From contig VBDY01000126.1 in assembly GCA_005882775.1 (NCBI GenBank), forward strand, positions 1-40,788: a stretch of DNA of 40,788 nucleotides, in the 5' to 3' direction. This DNA comes from Chloroflexota bacterium. GTDB taxonomy: Bacteria; Chloroflexota; Dormibacteria; CF-121. A model generated the notes under the pieces. It was not told the DNA's origin. It did no database searches and was given only the letters and a program-made list of their open reading frames with translations. A program made the translations under genes and the position numbers. Positions 9,948 to 15,117 of this stretch are shown here, piece by piece (positions within the stretch are counted from its first letter, which is position 1; each line of letters starts with the position of its first letter).

Positions 9948-11112
9948 GCGGCCGGAGAAACCGGCGGCTGAGCAGGTGCGCGGCGGCGAACCCGCCGGCG
10001 GTTGCCGACAGCGCGGGTCCCAGCGTCAGCGGTCCGAGTGACTGCAGCAAGAGTCCGATCCCTGCCGGAACCAGCGCCCCTCCCGCGATCCCGACCGCGG
10101 TCTGGTATCCGATGGCCCGGGTGGTTGCGCCGGCGCCGATCAGCTCTTTCGTGACCACCGTGAACAAGGGAAAGATCGGCGCCAGAGCCAGGCCGATCAG
10201 CGGAAGCGCCACCAGGGTGGAGACCAGGGGTGGCGCTAGCCAGAAGCCAACGGCCCCGACCGCTGCCGTTCCGACGCTCAGGTCGAGCAGCCCGCGGACG
10301 CCGATCCGGTTGCCGAAAACGCCAAGCGCGATCCGGCCGCCCGCCAGCGCCGACCAGTAGAGCGAGACACCAAGGCCTGCCGCTGCTCCGCTCACCCCGC
10401 GGGCCGTGGTCAGCTCGGAGTAAGGCCACTGTCCGCTCGCGGTTTCGACTCCCACATAGAGAAAGAAAAGGGAGGCGAGCAAGGCCACCACGCCGGCGTG
10501 GTCACCGACTCGACGGTGGGTTGGCTCCTGCTCGCCCGCTGCCACGGCTGCCGGGAGCCCACCGGCTCGAAATTCTGCCCGCCGCCATATGGCCAGCGCG
10601 GCCGCCACAAAAAAGGCGGCAGCCATGACCAGGTAGGCCGGTCGCCAGGAGCCGAAGACGGCCTCAGCGCCGACGATCACCTGGGGCCCCAACGCCGCGC
10701 CCAACGCCCAGGATGCGTGCAGCCATCCGAGCAGGCGGACTCCGTGATGGATCGCGACAAACGCATTGAGAGCCGCGTCACTCGGGCCCGATCCCATGCC
10801 GATCATGAGCGCGGCTAGTAGCGCCATCCACCATTGAGTGGCCACCGCGAGCAGGAGCAACCCGAGCGCTGCGATCGCGGACATCACTGCGATCAGGGTG
10901 GGTAGGCCCAGCCGGTCGCTCAGCGCCCCGGTCCAGGCGGTCGATAGCAGGAAGCCAAGCGTGGCCAGCGTCAGGAGCAGCCCCAGCCCGGCGAGCGGCG
11001 CTCCGAACGAAGTGCGCATGTGAGGCCAGGCGACGCCGAGGCTGCCTGCCGGTAGCCCGAGCACGACGAAAATCCCAAGCGGTAACAGGACTGGTTGGGC
11101 CCGCGCTCTCAT
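9937..11112 (-). CDS. MFS transporter
   Basis: A 391-residue major facilitator with about 12 hydrophobic segments. The loop between segments 2 and 3 carries GALSDRLGLPTLI, a recognisable version of the family's G-x3-D-R-x-G motif. Homology to a specific subfamily is not clear to me. The open frame runs upstream to 11637, but that part is arginine- and serine-rich, non-hydrophobic and lies across the opposite-strand gene, so I start at the ATG at 11112, directly before the first membrane helix. TACAGT 9 nt upstream supports this start and suggests a leaderless transcript. It is divergent from the secretion-like module, with 124 bp between starts. Confidence 0.85.
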   Translation of the reverse strand: MRARAQPVLLPLGIFVVLGLPAGSLGVAWPHMRTSFGAPLAGLGLLLTLATLGFLLSTAWTGALSDRLGLPTLIAVMSAIAALGLLLLAVATQWWMALLAALMIGMGSGPSDAALNAFVAIHHGVRLLGWLHASWALGAALGPQVIVGAEAVFGSWRPAYLVMAAAFFVAAALAIWRRAEFRAGGLPAAVAAGEQEPTHRRVGDHAGVVALLASLFFLYVGVETASGQWPYSELTTARGVSGAAAGLGVSLYWSALAGGRIALGVFGNRIGVRGLLDLSVGTAAVGAVGFWLAPPLVSTLVALPLIGLALAPIFPLFTVVTKELIGAGATTRAIGYQTAVGIAGGALVPAGIGLLLQSLGPLTLGPALSATAGGFAAAHLLSRRFLRPPRA

Positions 11113-11121
11113 AGATCGACC

Positions 11122-11127
11122 ACTGTA
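11122..11127 (-). promoter_or_regulatory. Candidate -10 (TACAGT) for the MFS gene
   Basis: TACAGT on the minus strand lies 9 nt before the ATG at 11112, the same distance seen at other likely leaderless genes here. The -35 region is poor. Confidence 0.35.
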
Positions 11128-11164
11128 TCCGCCGGATGATCCGACTCTCCTGGATCTCATCGTC

Positions 11165-11185
11165 TTGACAAATACACAGATTTGT
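11165..11185 (+). promoter_or_regulatory. Promoter -35 with overlapping palindromic operator
   Basis: A perfect TTGACA (11165-11170) precedes the secretion-like module. It overlaps an exact 6-bp inverted repeat, ACAAAT and ATTTGT (11168-11173 and 11180-11185), separated by 6 bp. A dimeric repressor of TetR or MarR type bound here would cover the -35 and spacer. The -10 is weak (CACTCT at 11188-11193, spacer 17). The site also lies upstream of the divergent MFS gene, so one regulator could control both. Confidence 0.45.
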
Positions 11186-11236
11186 GGCACTCTATCCCGG
11201 CCAACAGCTCGGCTGCTCGATTGAAGGAAGGGGAAG

Positions 11237-11620
11237 ATGCCGCAAACCTGGAAGCTCGTCCTGATCGGCGGAGAGGTGACGGTGCTGGCAGCCTTCACCG
11301 GGCTGGGCCTGCACCTGGTCATGCAGCCGCACCGGTTTGTGATGGCGCCGCCTCCCCTGCTGATTCCGGCCGGCCGGGCGGCAGCCGCGCCGGGTTCGTC
11401 GGTGACCGCGCCGGGATCGCCGGTGGTAGCGCCTGGTCGCACGTCCCCGAGCCCCGCGGCGAGAGGCCGGATCGCCCTGACTCCAGACCTCTTTTCAAAG
11501 TTTGGTGAGCAGGACCGCGGACTGATGAATAGCCAGTGGGACATCCTGCGGCGGCTGATGGGCGCCATGGAGAAGTACCTGGCACACAAGGTGATCCCGG
11601 GCATGGAAGGCCGCCGCTGA
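11237..11620 (+). CDS. Small membrane-anchored protein, first gene of secretion-like module
   Basis: A 127-residue protein with one hydrophobic segment at about 7-29 (uncleaved signal anchor), a low-complexity linker rich in Ala, Pro, Gly and Ser from about 36 to 80, and a predicted helical C-terminal part ending in basic residues. I recognise no family. The topology (short cytosolic end, one helix, flexible external linker, small domain) would suit an accessory subunit of an envelope-spanning machine. Its stop codon shares one base with the next start (TGATG), so the two are translationally coupled. The start has a GGAAGGGGAAG purine tract just upstream, a plausible ribosome site. The gene sits directly after the TTGACA promoter. 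Confidence 0.7.
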   Translation: MPQTWKLVLIGGEVTVLAAFTGLGLHLVMQPHRFVMAPPPLLIPAGRAAAAPGSSVTAPGSPVVAPGRTSPSPAARGRIALTPDLFSKFGEQDRGLMNSQWDILRRLMGAMEKYLAHKVIPGMEGRR

Positions 11621-11850
11621 TGGATCAGCTCAAACACCTGATCGAGGTCTGGACCGGCTACGGCCAGGGTCTTGCCGGGAGCATCGGCGCGCTGGCGTTT
11701 GTCTTCGCCTTCATCTGGAAGATGATCGCGATCGAGCCGCGCAGCGTCATGGAGGCAAAGCGCTGGATCGGCCGGATCGTGTTCGGAACCATTGGGGTGG
11801 AAATGGCCGGCCTCCTGGTCCGGGTCCTGGTCGACTCGGTCAATCGCTGA
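11620..11850 (+). CDS. VirB2/TrbC-like small two-helix membrane protein
   Basis: A 76-residue protein with two hydrophobic segments (about 15-35 and 50-70) joined by a short charged loop (EPRSVMEAKRW). This hairpin topology and size are those of mature VirB2/TrbC-type conjugative pilins. Sequence identity with that family is too low to claim from inspection, so the call rests on topology and on the TrbL/VirB6-like neighbour. Unlike many pilins it lacks a long cleavable signal peptide. The ATG at 11620 overlaps the preceding stop codon by one base; an upstream in-frame ATG would add 28 unlikely residues. The next gene starts 22 nt downstream. Confidence 0.6.
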   Translation: MDQLKHLIEVWTGYGQGLAGSIGALAFVFAFIWKMIAIEPRSVMEAKRWIGRIVFGTIGVEMAGLLVRVLVDSVNR

Positions 11851-11872
11851 GCGCCGGTGAGCCTTTCAGGCC

Positions 11873-12751
11873 GTGCTAGAGATCTTCTCCAGCCTCCTCA
11901 GCGGCTTCCTCGATCACGTCATCAACGACGTTCGCGGCTCTGTGGCGGGATATGCGGAGACCTACCTGCTCAGCACGCACGACCTCTCTCGGGGCGGCGC
12001 CCAGGCACTCACCTCCGACCCGGCTCTCCAGGCCATGTATCACCTCACCCTGGGCATATCCGACGCCCTGCTGGTGCTGGTCTACGTCTGGGCATTTCTG
12101 CGGAGCATGTGGGAACGCGGCTTTCGGCCGCACTACACGCTCAAAGTCATGCTCCCCAGGACCATGGCTGCCATCGCCCTGGCGCATTTCGGCCTGCTAT
12201 TCGGTCAGATGGCGATCGACCTCAACAACGTGCTGGTGCACGCGGCCTGGACGACCCCCCTCCAAACCGGGCCCGGGCCGGCCGCCGCTTTCCCCTGGCA
12301 TTTCGCCCTGGACAATCCCTTCGGGTTTCCGCTGTTTCAGCTGGCGGTCCGGCTGGCGATCGTGGTGATGATCAGCATCCTCGCCCTGACCTACGTGATC
12401 CGGTTTGCCCTGCTCTCGGTACTCCTGGCCATCGCGCCTCTGGCGGCACTCTGTCTCATCCTCCCGGAGACCAAGAACTACGCCCGCAGCTGGACCCGTC
12501 TGTTCCTGATCACTGTGTTCATGCAGTTTGTCCAGGTCCTGATCCTGCGGTTCGCCAGCCTGTTTTCCAGCGACCTCAGCGGTAGCGTCATGCAGGCTCT
12601 CTATGGGCTGGCCGTCCTCTACCTGGTGCTAAAGGTGCCGGGCTTGATGAACGCCTCGGCCCACCTGGAATCGAAAGCCCAGCACCTGGCCGAGTCAACC
12701 GCCAAGCGAGCAATCAAGACTGCGGTCGGCACCCACCGGGCGGGATCGTGA
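11873..12751 (+). CDS. VirB6/TrbL-like polytopic membrane protein
   Basis: A 292-residue protein with about six hydrophobic segments. The central stretch YVIRFALLSVLLAIAPLA, followed by polar ETKNYARSWTR and the helix FLITVFMQFVQVLIL, is the pattern of TrbL/VirB6 inner-membrane channel proteins: a helix ending in AP-L-A, then a conserved tryptophan loop, then a glutamine-containing helix. In type IV secretion systems this subunit forms part of the inner-membrane translocation path. The C-terminus after about 255 is a cytosolic charged tail. The start is GTG at 11873. The following peptidase gene overlaps the stop by 4 nt (GTGA). No VirB4 or VirD4 ATPase is encoded nearby. Confidence 0.7.
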   Translation: MLEIFSSLLSGFLDHVINDVRGSVAGYAETYLLSTHDLSRGGAQALTSDPALQAMYHLTLGISDALLVLVYVWAFLRSMWERGFRPHYTLKVMLPRTMAAIALAHFGLLFGQMAIDLNNVLVHAAWTTPLQTGPGPAAAFPWHFALDNPFGFPLFQLAVRLAIVVMISILALTYVIRFALLSVLLAIAPLAALCLILPETKNYARSWTRLFLITVFMQFVQVLILRFASLFSSDLSGSVMQALYGLAVLYLVLKVPGLMNASAHLESKAQHLAESTAKRAIKTAVGTHRAGS

Positions 12752-13323
12752 GCCTGGTCACCTATCGCGGCTTCCTGCTCGCCTGGTCATTCAGAAAGCC
12801 GCTGGTGATTGCCTGCCTGGTGTTGCTTGGCCTTCCCCTCCTCTTCGCCGCCATGCTCACCGCTGGCGCCGGCACGGGTGCGCCGATCGGTTCCATCGCT
12901 CTCCCCGTCCACGGTGCCGTCCTGACGCAGCCCTTCGGGTGCACCAGCTACGAGCGAGAGCCGTGGTCCGAGCAGTGCCCTGAGCACCATTTCCACAGCG
13001 GCATCGACCTGGCGGCCGCGTTGAAGACGCCGGTCTACGCCGCCACCCCGGGCACCGCCTACGTCGCCCGCGAGCGTGGTGGCTATGGGCTCTACGTCGT
13101 GATCCTGCGTGATCCAGGCTTCAGCACCCTTTACGGCCACCTCTACTTTCCGCTCGTGGGCACCGGCGGCCAGGTAGTGACCGGACAGGTGATCGGATTG
13201 ATGGGCTCCTCCGGGAACAGCAGCGGCCCTCACCTCCACTTCGAAGTCCGCCTGGGCGGGCTTCCCGCCGATCCGATCCCGCTGCTGCCGGCGGGCGGCT
13301 GGGGAGGTGATGCCCGCGGCTGA
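12748..13323 (+). CDS. Membrane-anchored M23 (LytM) peptidase
   Basis: A 191-residue peptidoglycan endopeptidase of the M23 family. One hydrophobic segment at about 18-40 anchors or exports it. The catalytic domain runs from about 50 to 180. Zinc ligands are visible in HFHSGIDLAA (the H and D of HSGID) and in GPHLHFEVR (HxH), and YGHLY matches the conserved catalytic-histidine region. It would cut cell-wall cross-links, here plausibly to open a path for the secretion-like complex encoded just upstream, as VirB1-type hydrolases do in conjugation systems. It starts with GTG overlapping the previous stop codon by 4 nt. The SSB gene follows after 36 nt. Confidence 0.88.
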   Translation: MSLVTYRGFLLAWSFRKPLVIACLVLLGLPLLFAAMLTAGAGTGAPIGSIALPVHGAVLTQPFGCTSYEREPWSEQCPEHHFHSGIDLAAALKTPVYAATPGTAYVARERGGYGLYVVILRDPGFSTLYGHLYFPLVGTGGQVVTGQVIGLMGSSGNSSGPHLHFEVRLGGLPADPIPLLPAGGWGGDARG

Positions 13324-13347
13324 GCGACCTGTCCATTTCGTGAATTG

Positions 13348-13353
13348 AAGGAG
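13348..13353 (+). promoter_or_regulatory. Ribosome binding site that fixes the SSB start
   Basis: AAGGAG ends 6 nt before the ATG at 13360. This supports that ATG over an in-frame TTG 15 nt upstream. Confidence 0.75.
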
Positions 13354-13359
13354 TGTCTG

Positions 13360-13743
13360 ATGGTCAACCGCGTACATCTGATAGGAAGGCTGACTCGGGA
13401 TCCGGAGATCGTTACCAGCCCGAAGGGCTTGAGCATCGCCAAGCTTCGGCTGGCCACCAACAGCTACGGTCGGGACGAGGACGGCAATCGCACCGAGGAC
13501 GTCCAGTACCACTCTCTGGTCGCGTTTGGCCGGCTGGCCGGCGTCTGCCAGGAATACCTGAGCCGGGGAAAGCTCATCTATGTAGAGGGCAAGCTGCGGA
13601 GCAAGGAGTGGGACGGCAAGGACGGGTTTCGACGATACACCACCGAGGTGGTGATCGACTTCATGCAGATCCTGAGCCCGAAGAACGAGGGGAACACCGA
13701 AGAGATAGCGCCCGAGCCTGCCGCCGAACCCGTGAGCGCCTGA
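13360..13743 (+). CDS. ssb: Single-stranded DNA-binding protein lacking the acidic C-terminal tip
   Basis: A 127-residue SSB with the full OB fold: the start VNRVHLIGRLTRDPE, the LATNSYG strand and W/F-containing DNA-contact strands (EYLSRGKLIYVEGKLRSKEW). It binds single-stranded DNA as a tetramer. The C-terminal tail is short (about 20 residues) and ends PEPAAEPVSA, so it lacks the DD-x-P-F tip through which housekeeping SSBs recruit partners. It sits in the secretion-like module and not next to rpsF/rpsR. The ribosomal L9 and dnaB genes, often near ssb, are about 13 kb downstream without one. That context suggests an accessory SSB for transferred DNA, although it could be the only copy. 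Confidence 0.9.
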   Translation: MVNRVHLIGRLTRDPEIVTSPKGLSIAKLRLATNSYGRDEDGNRTEDVQYHSLVAFGRLAGVCQEYLSRGKLIYVEGKLRSKEWDGKDGFRRYTTEVVIDFMQILSPKNEGNTEEIAPEPAAEPVSA

Positions 13744-13751
13744 GGGGCGCC

Positions 13752-13901
13752 ATGATAAACACGAGCAACCTGCCCGAACCGCATCCGGACGACGACGACG
13801 ATGGACCGTACGACGAAACCGAGGCCGAGCTCGTTCGCTGGAACAACCCGCTTCGGCCGGAGGACTGGCTGGACAGCTACCAGGAGGCTTCGCTCTACTG
13901 A
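13752..13901 (+). CDS. Very acidic 49-residue protein
   Basis: An ATG at 13752, 8 nt after the SSB stop and preceded by GAGGGG, opens a 49-codon frame. The product has 14 acidic residues, including a run of five aspartates at 13-17, against two arginines, plus an aromatic C-terminal half (W30, W39, Y43, Y49). No family is recognised. Position, ribosome-site-like context and a strong terminator directly after its stop support a real last gene of the operon. A partner for the tipless SSB or a DNA-mimic role is speculation. Confidence 0.6.
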   Translation: MINTSNLPEPHPDDDDDGPYDETEAELVRWNNPLRPEDWLDSYQEASLY

Positions 13902-13905
13902 ACAC

Positions 13906-13956
13906 GGGGACCGCGCCAGAGAGACAGCCTCCGGCTGGGCGCGGCCCTCGTCTTTT
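13906..13956 (+). terminator. Rho-independent terminator of the secretion-like/ssb operon
   Basis: An 11-bp stem pairs GGGG(A)CCGCGCC (13906-13917) with GGCGCGGCCCT (13938-13948), with one bulged A. The loop contains a small AGCC/GGCT hairpin. The tail is TCTTTT at 13951-13956. It begins 5 nt after the stop of the 49-residue gene. Confidence 0.75.
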
Positions 13957-13972
13957 GGCCCGCTTCACTCGC

Positions 13973-13978
13973 TAGAAT
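13973..13978 (+). promoter_or_regulatory. Candidate -10 (TAGAAT) for ychF-lipM
   Basis: TAGAAT lies between the terminator and the ychF ATG at 14020, predicting a leader of about 35 nt. No strong -35 is seen. Confidence 0.35.
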
Positions 13979-14019
13979 CGTCGGGCGTTGCTCTGGCAGG
14001 ATACGCGCGTATTTAGTCG

Positions 14020-15117
14020 ATGACGCTCGGGGTGGGCATCGTGGGCCTGCCCAACGTGGGCAAGACCACGCTGTTCAACGCCCTCACCAGAGCGGGTGCC
14101 GGGGTGGCCAGCTACGCCTTCAGCACGGTCGAGCCGAACACGGCCATGGTCGAGGTTCCCGATCCACGACTGTCAGTGCTGGCCCGGATGTATCAACCGA
14201 AAAAGATCACGCCCACCGTCATGAAGTTCGTAGATGTGGCCGGTCTGGTCCAGGGCGCGAGCCGCGGCGAGGGCATGGGCAACCTGTTTCTGTCCCAGAT
14301 CCGGGAGCTCGATGCGCTGGCCATGGTGGTTAGATGTTTTCAGGACCCCAACGTCCAGCACGTATCCCAGGGGCTCGATCCACAGCGCGATATTGAGATG
14401 GTCAACCTAGAGCTGGCTCTCGCCGACCTGGATGTCGTCAACAAGCGCCGAGATAAGATCGCGGGCACCGCCCGTTTCAAGCCCGGGGCGAAGGAGCAGG
14501 ACGAGCTGGGTGTGCTCGACCGGCTTGCCGCCCACCTGGATGCCGGCCAACCGATCCGAAGCGTGAGCCTGCAGCCGGAAGAGAGCCGGATGATGAGGAG
14601 CTTTTCCTTTCTGACTGCGAAGCCGATCCTCTACGTGGCGAACATCGGGGAGGACCAGATCGGGAAGAACACGCCAGAGCTGGCGGCAGTGAACGCGGCC
14701 GCGAGTGCTGCGGGCACCCAGGTGATCGTGCTGTCCGCCCGTCTCGAGGCCGAGATTCGCGAACTGCCTGACGAGGAGGCGGCTGCATTCCTCGAGGATG
14801 CCGGCCTCAAGGAGCCGGCCCTCGATGCGTTCATCCATGAGGCCTATAGGTCGCTGAACCTGCTCACCTTCCTGACGGCGGGCGAGAGCGAGGTGCGTGC
14901 CTGGACGGTCCGTCAGGGTGCCCGCGCACCCGAGGCGGCGGGTGTCATCCACAGCGACTTCGAACGCGGTTTCATCAAGGCTGAGATCGTCGCCTTCGAT
15001 GAGCTGTCCGCCTCGGGTTCATACCCCGCCGCCAGGGATCGAGGCAAGGTCCGGCTCGAGGGCAAGGACTACTTGATGAAGGATGGGGACGTCGTGCTCT
15101 TCCGGTTCAATGTCTGA
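14020..15117 (+). CDS. ychF: Obg-family ATPase YchF
   Basis: A 365-residue YchF, the universally conserved P-loop NTPase that binds ATP in preference to GTP and associates with ribosomes, with a role in oxidative-stress response. G1 is GLPNVGKTT near residues 8-16. The G3 region is FVDVAGLVQGAS. The G4 region is YVANIGED: an N-x-x-E replaces the GTP-selective N-K-x-D, which is the hallmark of YchF. The C-terminal TGS-like domain ends with AYGS-type residues and the usual LMKDGDVVLFRFNV. Length and ends match the family. The start is ATG at 14020. The last 8 nt overlap the lipM start, so the two are probably coupled. Confidence 0.95.
   Translation: MTLGVGIVGLPNVGKTTLFNALTRAGAGVASYAFSTVEPNTAMVEVPDPRLSVLARMYQPKKITPTVMKFVDVAGLVQGASRGEGMGNLFLSQIRELDALAMVVRCFQDPNVQHVSQGLDPQRDIEMVNLELALADLDVVNKRRDKIAGTARFKPGAKEQDELGVLDRLAAHLDAGQPIRSVSLQPEESRMMRSFSFLTAKPILYVANIGEDQIGKNTPELAAVNAAASAAGTQVIVLSARLEAEIRELPDEEAAAFLEDAGLKEPALDAFIHEAYRSLNLLTFLTAGESEVRAWTVRQGARAPEAAGVIHSDFERGFIKAEIVAFDELSASGSYPAARDRGKVRLEGKDYLMKDGDVVLFRFNV

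Follow-up and report, generated by a model that had tools for sequence, protein, structure and literature searches.

A core T4SS that is chromosomal and class-wide, consists of VirB2, VirB3 (PrgI), VirB4, and VirB6, mostly lacks a relaxase, and is related to monoderm conjugation systems has been described in Patescibacteria (PMC12102498). In the archaeal Ced and Ted systems, homologues of VirB2, VirB4, and VirB6 import DNA without a known relaxase, the Ted loci also carrying ParA-like genes (PMC9905601). Helicobacter pylori has, in ComB, a T4SS without VirD4 that operates in conjunction with ComEC (PMC12857230), and the tad genes of Micrococcus luteus are required for transformation (PMC4322843). 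For Dormibacterota, a little-known phylum of soil bacteria, neither a T4SS nor a competence machine is described in the literature searched.

Here, we analyzed a cluster of six genes in a 40,788-nucleotide stretch of DNA from this phylum (hereafter, the window) and followed it through 61 genomes, comprising the window's own (G000) and 60 relatives in four families (f1–f4). The cluster is almost certainly derived from a T4SS and, as judged by sequence comparison, is one half of a predicted chromosomal and vertically inherited T4SS core of Dormibacterota, in which the putative VirB2, VirB6, hydrolase, and SSB genes are located at this cluster and VirB3/PrgI–VirB4 elsewhere, without VirD4. The set resembles the Patescibacteria system in being chromosomal and class-wide and in having VirB2, VirB3 (PrgI), VirB4, and VirB6 parts, but differs in that these parts are split over two places, a dedicated SSB and an M23 hydrolase stand beside VirB6, VirB3–VirB4 belong to a Tad operon, and the core lacks VirD4. 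As in Ced/Ted, homologues of VirB2, VirB4, and VirB6 are found on the chromosome, and both are domesticated T4SSs built of such proteins; the Dormibacterota set is bacterial and has in addition an SSB, a wall hydrolase, and a VirB3-like domain, its genomes usually also encoding ComEC, whereas DNA import is putative here. With H. pylori, the set has in common that its T4SS parts lack VirD4 and occur alongside ComEC, although ComB is of the diderm type and no outer-membrane core gene was noticed in the set; with M. luteus, it has in common the co-occurrence of a Tad operon and ComEC, but the Tad operon of Dormibacterota contains a PrgI–ParA fusion and VirB4. PrgI, VirB4, VirB6, a VirB2-like protein, and a wall hydrolase are also shared with the MPF-FATA systems of monoderm conjugation, from which the core differs in lacking VirD4, in not being mobile, and in being vertically inherited. 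The set is a class-wide chromosomal variant of domesticated T4SSs, new for the phylum as far as the searched literature shows.

Organization of the gene cluster

The cluster consists of the following features:

Gene A, 11237–11620, + strand: 127-aa protein with an N-terminal hydrophobic segment and a Pro/Ala-rich linker
Gene B, 11620–11850, + strand: 76-aa, VirB2-like two-helix protein
Gene C, 11873–12751, + strand: 292-aa, VirB6/TrbL-like polytopic membrane protein
Gene D, 12748–13323, + strand: membrane-anchored M23 wall hydrolase
Module SSB, 13360–13743, + strand: second single-stranded-DNA-binding protein, without an acidic -DIPF tip
Gene E, 13752–13901, + strand: 49-aa acidic peptide, net charge −12
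Terminator-like hairpin with T-rich tail, 13933–13956 (stem, 13933–13946), + strand: found by pattern scan

All six genes are co-directional, with intergenic gaps of −1, 22, −4, 36, and 8 bases from A to E, in agreement with the tight spacing noted in an initial sequence-only reading. Since all six ORFs scored as coding in codon usage and the order B, C, D, SSB is repeated in most relatives, the six ORFs are more than a chance arrangement. Of the single promoter and single terminator proposed in that reading, the terminator was retained, as the hairpin lies 3' of gene E (the pattern scan of the region gave four terminator-like sites vs. 1.4 expected); the promoter was not, as a scan of 11050–14050 with a sigma-70-type pattern gave no match.

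The sole hydrophobic segment of A spans residues 7–28, and the C-terminus of A looks helical. The position of A is kept throughout family f1 and in one f2 genome (G020), and relatives of it are found at other places in G036, G040, and G048. Family searches with A, B, and E gave no significant match. The assignment of D as an M23 wall hydrolase was borne out by a match to PF01551 (93.7 bits) and by the presence of HSGID and HLH motifs; the one hydrophobic segment of D spans residues 8–29. The hydrolase slot is filled by a CHAP protein in genus g23, and in G021 by an SLT-like protein (20.8 bits, below the cut-off of 21.3); that different wall hydrolases occupy one slot suggests that wall cutting is part of the job of the module. 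The last gene, E, encodes an acidic peptide as expected, and similar acidic peptides are found at the matching position in f1 relatives, so that in f1 a very acidic peptide gene (13752–13901 in the window) directly follows the tip-less SSB gene. It might be guessed that the E peptide stands in for the missing acidic tail of the SSB.

VirB2- and VirB6-like membrane proteins

In an hhalign comparison, B aligned over its full length (76 columns) with VirB2-like proteins encoded in conjugative loci (probability, 86.2; E, 4.9e-6), and was modeled as a helical hairpin of two helices (pLDDT, 92.9), in keeping with its initial description as a VirB2-like two-helix protein; a fold search with the hairpin gave nothing informative. 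In the loci read, B is always located directly 5' of C.

C scored 19.7 bits against Pfam TrbL (PF04610), below the cut-off of 25.9, and one C homologue in the class passed Pfam TrbL_4 (27.2 vs. a curated cut-off of 27). Sequence searches with C recovered, within the same class, VirB6-type genes that belong to conjugation loci (E: G007, 2.7e-14; G018, 6.5e-12; G025, 4.7e-11), all of which contain VirB4, two a T4SS pilin, and the longest a VirD4-like protein. When the AlphaFold model of C (pLDDT, 86.9) was compared with solved structures, the top five PDB matches were all R388 VirB6/TrwI (E, 0.013 to 0.09), the best having a probability of 1.00 and a modest E of 0.013, with no competing fold. 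A PDB sequence search with the C profile and an IMG/VR scan with C gave nothing informative. On both sequence and fold matches, C is assigned to the VirB6-type channels of the T4SS superfamily, so that the VirB6/TrbL-like channel proposed in the initial reading, and with it detectable T4SS similarity, withstood the profile and structure comparisons. In G018, a TraG/VirB4-like ATPase fragment with a very long branch (L039:4382-5641) was seen close upstream of B.

VirB4-type ATPase and the Tad operon

The sequence-only reading had described the module as devoid of motor ATPases, which is true of the cluster and not of the genome: VirB4, the hallmark of T4SSs, has a homologue at G000:C223 (E, 2.4e-54 to an f4 query; P-loop_TraG, 43.1 bits with a cut-off of 25.8). 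VirB4-type ATPases were found with the single f4 query in 54 of the 61 genomes, a few of them being conjugative copies. In the VirB4 tree, 21 core VirB4s form one clade (support, 100/99) that is split by family and stands apart from the conjugative VirB4s. Contig ends account for the lack of VirB4 in G006 and G012; none was detectable in G003 (95% complete) or G051 (99%), both with the module, where either an assembly gap or a real uncoupling is the cause. The VirB3/PrgI partner of the T4SS superfamily is likewise present, a PrgI/VirB3-like domain being encoded just 5' of VirB4 class-wide; in f1 and f2, PrgI is fused to a ParA/TadZ-like ATPase (in G009, PrgI 32.4 bits with a cut-off of 27). 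The search for PrgI in G000 gave no match, the region falling at contig ends. In f4, B–C are tied to VirB4 by an uninterrupted row of PrgI, VirB4, two more genes, B, and C. The earlier suggestion that the cluster may work with ATPases encoded elsewhere is thus probable, given the VirB4 homologue in G000 and its class-wide VirB3/PrgI partner.

In f1, the family of the window, the PrgI–TadZ fusion opens a Tad operon and VirB4 closes it. The arrangement is best seen at L082, where PrgI–TadZ, TadA, TadB, TadC, a Flp-like pilin, TadE, TadG, a PKD protein, CpaB, and VirB4 follow one another (TadB and the pilin were assigned by position and look, with no match above the cut-off); a Tad/Flp pilus in one operon is thus encoded around VirB4, and not in the window cluster. 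G000:C34 has the same Tad order up to its end, and G000:C223 starts inside VirB4, so that the same operon of G000 has probably been cut by an assembly gap. The VirB4–Tad link was seen in f1 and two f2 genomes only. In the part of the genome search that concerned the coupling protein, a class query for VirD4 found matches in five of the 61 genomes, with none in G000 or f1; the VirD4-type protein of conjugative T4SSs (MPF-FATA) is therefore missing, and no relaxase was seen among the genes adjoining the module.

Several other genes were observed around these loci. In f4, a second VirB4-like ATPase, which branches apart from the core VirB4, and a longer TrbL-domain protein (L044:2302-4503, L046:1-4135) are located roughly 15–18 kb from B–C. 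A conserved protein of ~198 aa with no Pfam match is encoded downstream of VirB4 in f1, f3, and f4 (L082:13222-13818, L076:5655-6251). Large ribonucleotide-reductase-like genes with an intein-like look adjoin VirB4 (L083:10428-14360, L085:5584-9936), the relative at L086 being shorter.

Distribution and inheritance of the module

Matches to C were found in 57 of the 61 genomes; the core count is 56, because the match in G007 belongs to a conjugative locus. Of the five genomes without a core C, the module locus of G029 and G043 is either lacking or truncated where a contig ends, the genome of G007 is 82% complete, and the remaining two (G024 and G056) belong to genus g11, to which real absence seems to be limited. 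The module also seemed to be lost in G029, G043, and G348, but these cases came down to contig ends or to the lack of a flanking gene. The hydrolase and SSB genes follow B–C in most f1, f2, and f3 genomes, and f4 has B–C alone, except for G060 with its SSB retained. The neighborhood comparison thus extended B, C, D, and the SSB as a set far beyond the source genome. As the module trees follow the families and the place of the module is kept in f1, which is not the pattern of a mobile element, the B–C set, which almost every genome sampled from the class contains, is inherited vertically.

Relatives named Candidatus Dormibacterota, including those under older labels, were covered by a genome-contig scan with a narrower C alignment, the wide one being too diverse. 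C relatives in other parts of the phylum have a scattered distribution and are often present in several copies, and all four of the C loci read there have VirB4 and a PrgI-like gene, with VirB2-like and VirD4-like proteins among them. Three genomes of the class carry true conjugation-type T4SS loci (L058, L059, and L060), and the conjugation-type locus of G025 adjoins Tad genes.

A second SSB

The SSB predicted in the cluster was corroborated by a match to PF00436 (103.4 bits). G000 has its housekeeping SSB at G000:C118, in the rpsF-ssb-rpsR copy, and the possibility that this gene adjoins the module by accident was thereby ruled out, the SSB of the cluster being a second paralogue. An acidic -DIPF-type tip is found in none of 20 module SSBs and in all nine housekeeping SSBs of the tree (the latter were picked by their tip, yet unfiltered gene calls agree), and the two groups are split in the tree by a 100/99 branch. 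A second SSB beside the housekeeping one is the arrangement of competence-type second SSBs (SsbB).

Association with ComEC and possible function

In G000, ComEA (SLBB and HHH) adjoins ComEC. With the M23, SSB, and ComEC states coded by hand, 26 genomes have both the M23 gene and ComEC and five the M23 gene only, against one with ComEC and 13 with neither among those without M23 (p = 1.4e-6, uncorrected for phylogeny); by genus, the corresponding figures are 19/1 against 1/7 (p = 5e-5, likewise uncorrected). All five M23-positive genomes without ComEC are at most 89% complete. The co-variation of the SSB with ComEC is weaker (p = 0.006, uncorrected for phylogeny), and several f2 genomes have ComEC with the module SSB absent. 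No match to ComEC was found in any of the f4 genomes searched, and f4 retains VirB2/3/4/6 without detectable ComEC, mostly without the module hydrolase or SSB.

Because the hydrolase, the SSB, and ComEC co-vary, the predicted core is best supported as a DNA importer acting together with ComEA/ComEC and the Tad pilus, a function to which we give an even chance of being correct. In the proposed mechanism, the Tad pilus, or a pilus of B, would bind or pull DNA, and D would open the wall. VirB4 and VirB3 would power either assembly or transport at the VirB6 channel; single strands would cross the membrane by way of ComEA/ComEC or of the VirB6 channel itself, and the strand coming in would be coated by the tip-less SSB. 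The DNA-uptake device suggested in the sequence-only reading is thus the best fit to the co-variation, and is limited by the f4 core without ComEC and by the two genomes with the module in which VirB4 was undetectable (G003 and G051).

The main rival, which we consider possible but clearly less probable than import, is that the same core exports, either releasing single-stranded DNA or delivering protein to the medium or to neighboring cells. Every VirB-type part is also found in exporters, f4 keeps the core without ComEC, and the Patescibacteria T4SS, chromosomal and mostly without a relaxase, is essential in one species for living on a host (PMC12102498); on the other side, the core has no VirD4-type coupling protein, and the presence of the hydrolase and SSB tracks that of ComEC. 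The gonococcal-island T4SS, which secretes single-stranded DNA, also comes with an SSB gene, but deletion of ssbB there had no effect on secretion (PMC3334931). It is improbable that the T4SS parts serve only adhesion or movement, by building or anchoring a surface pilus (of B or Tad), with no transport of DNA or protein: the VirB2-like nature of B and the closing position of VirB4 in the Tad operon of f1 would agree with this, but it leaves no role for a second SSB in the same gene row. The remnant of a conjugative element, considered in the sequence-only reading, was rejected as highly improbable in view of nearly class-wide vertical conservation, since, although B, C, and VirB4 are homologous to conjugative parts and a few genomes of the class contain true conjugative relatives, the trees are congruent with the families, the clade stands apart from the conjugative copies, and C matched no phage and, weakly, one plasmid. 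A phage or defence cassette was dismissed, as C lacked a phage match and A to E a defence match; the VirB4-type ATPase as a defence gene was likewise set aside, its match to mad8 (67.1 bits) and weak HerA matches being read as P-loop kinship.

If the import reading holds, the Dormibacterota core would be a candidate bacterial counterpart of archaeal DNA import, in a phylum where a T4SS core normally found on mobile elements has become a conserved, non-conjugative one. A close relationship of Dormibacterota and Patescibacteria has been proposed, and with such a core in the former, a VirB4 tree would directly test where the T4SS of the latter came from. It is rather doubtful, though conceivable, that the Dormibacterota T4SS is the ancestral free-living form of the Patescibacteria one, working as a monoderm-type chimeric DNA importer composed of Tad, VirB2/3/4/6, the hydrolase, the SSB, and ComEC. 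The locus also provides a case of a VirB3–VirB4 pair having joined a Tad-pilus operon.
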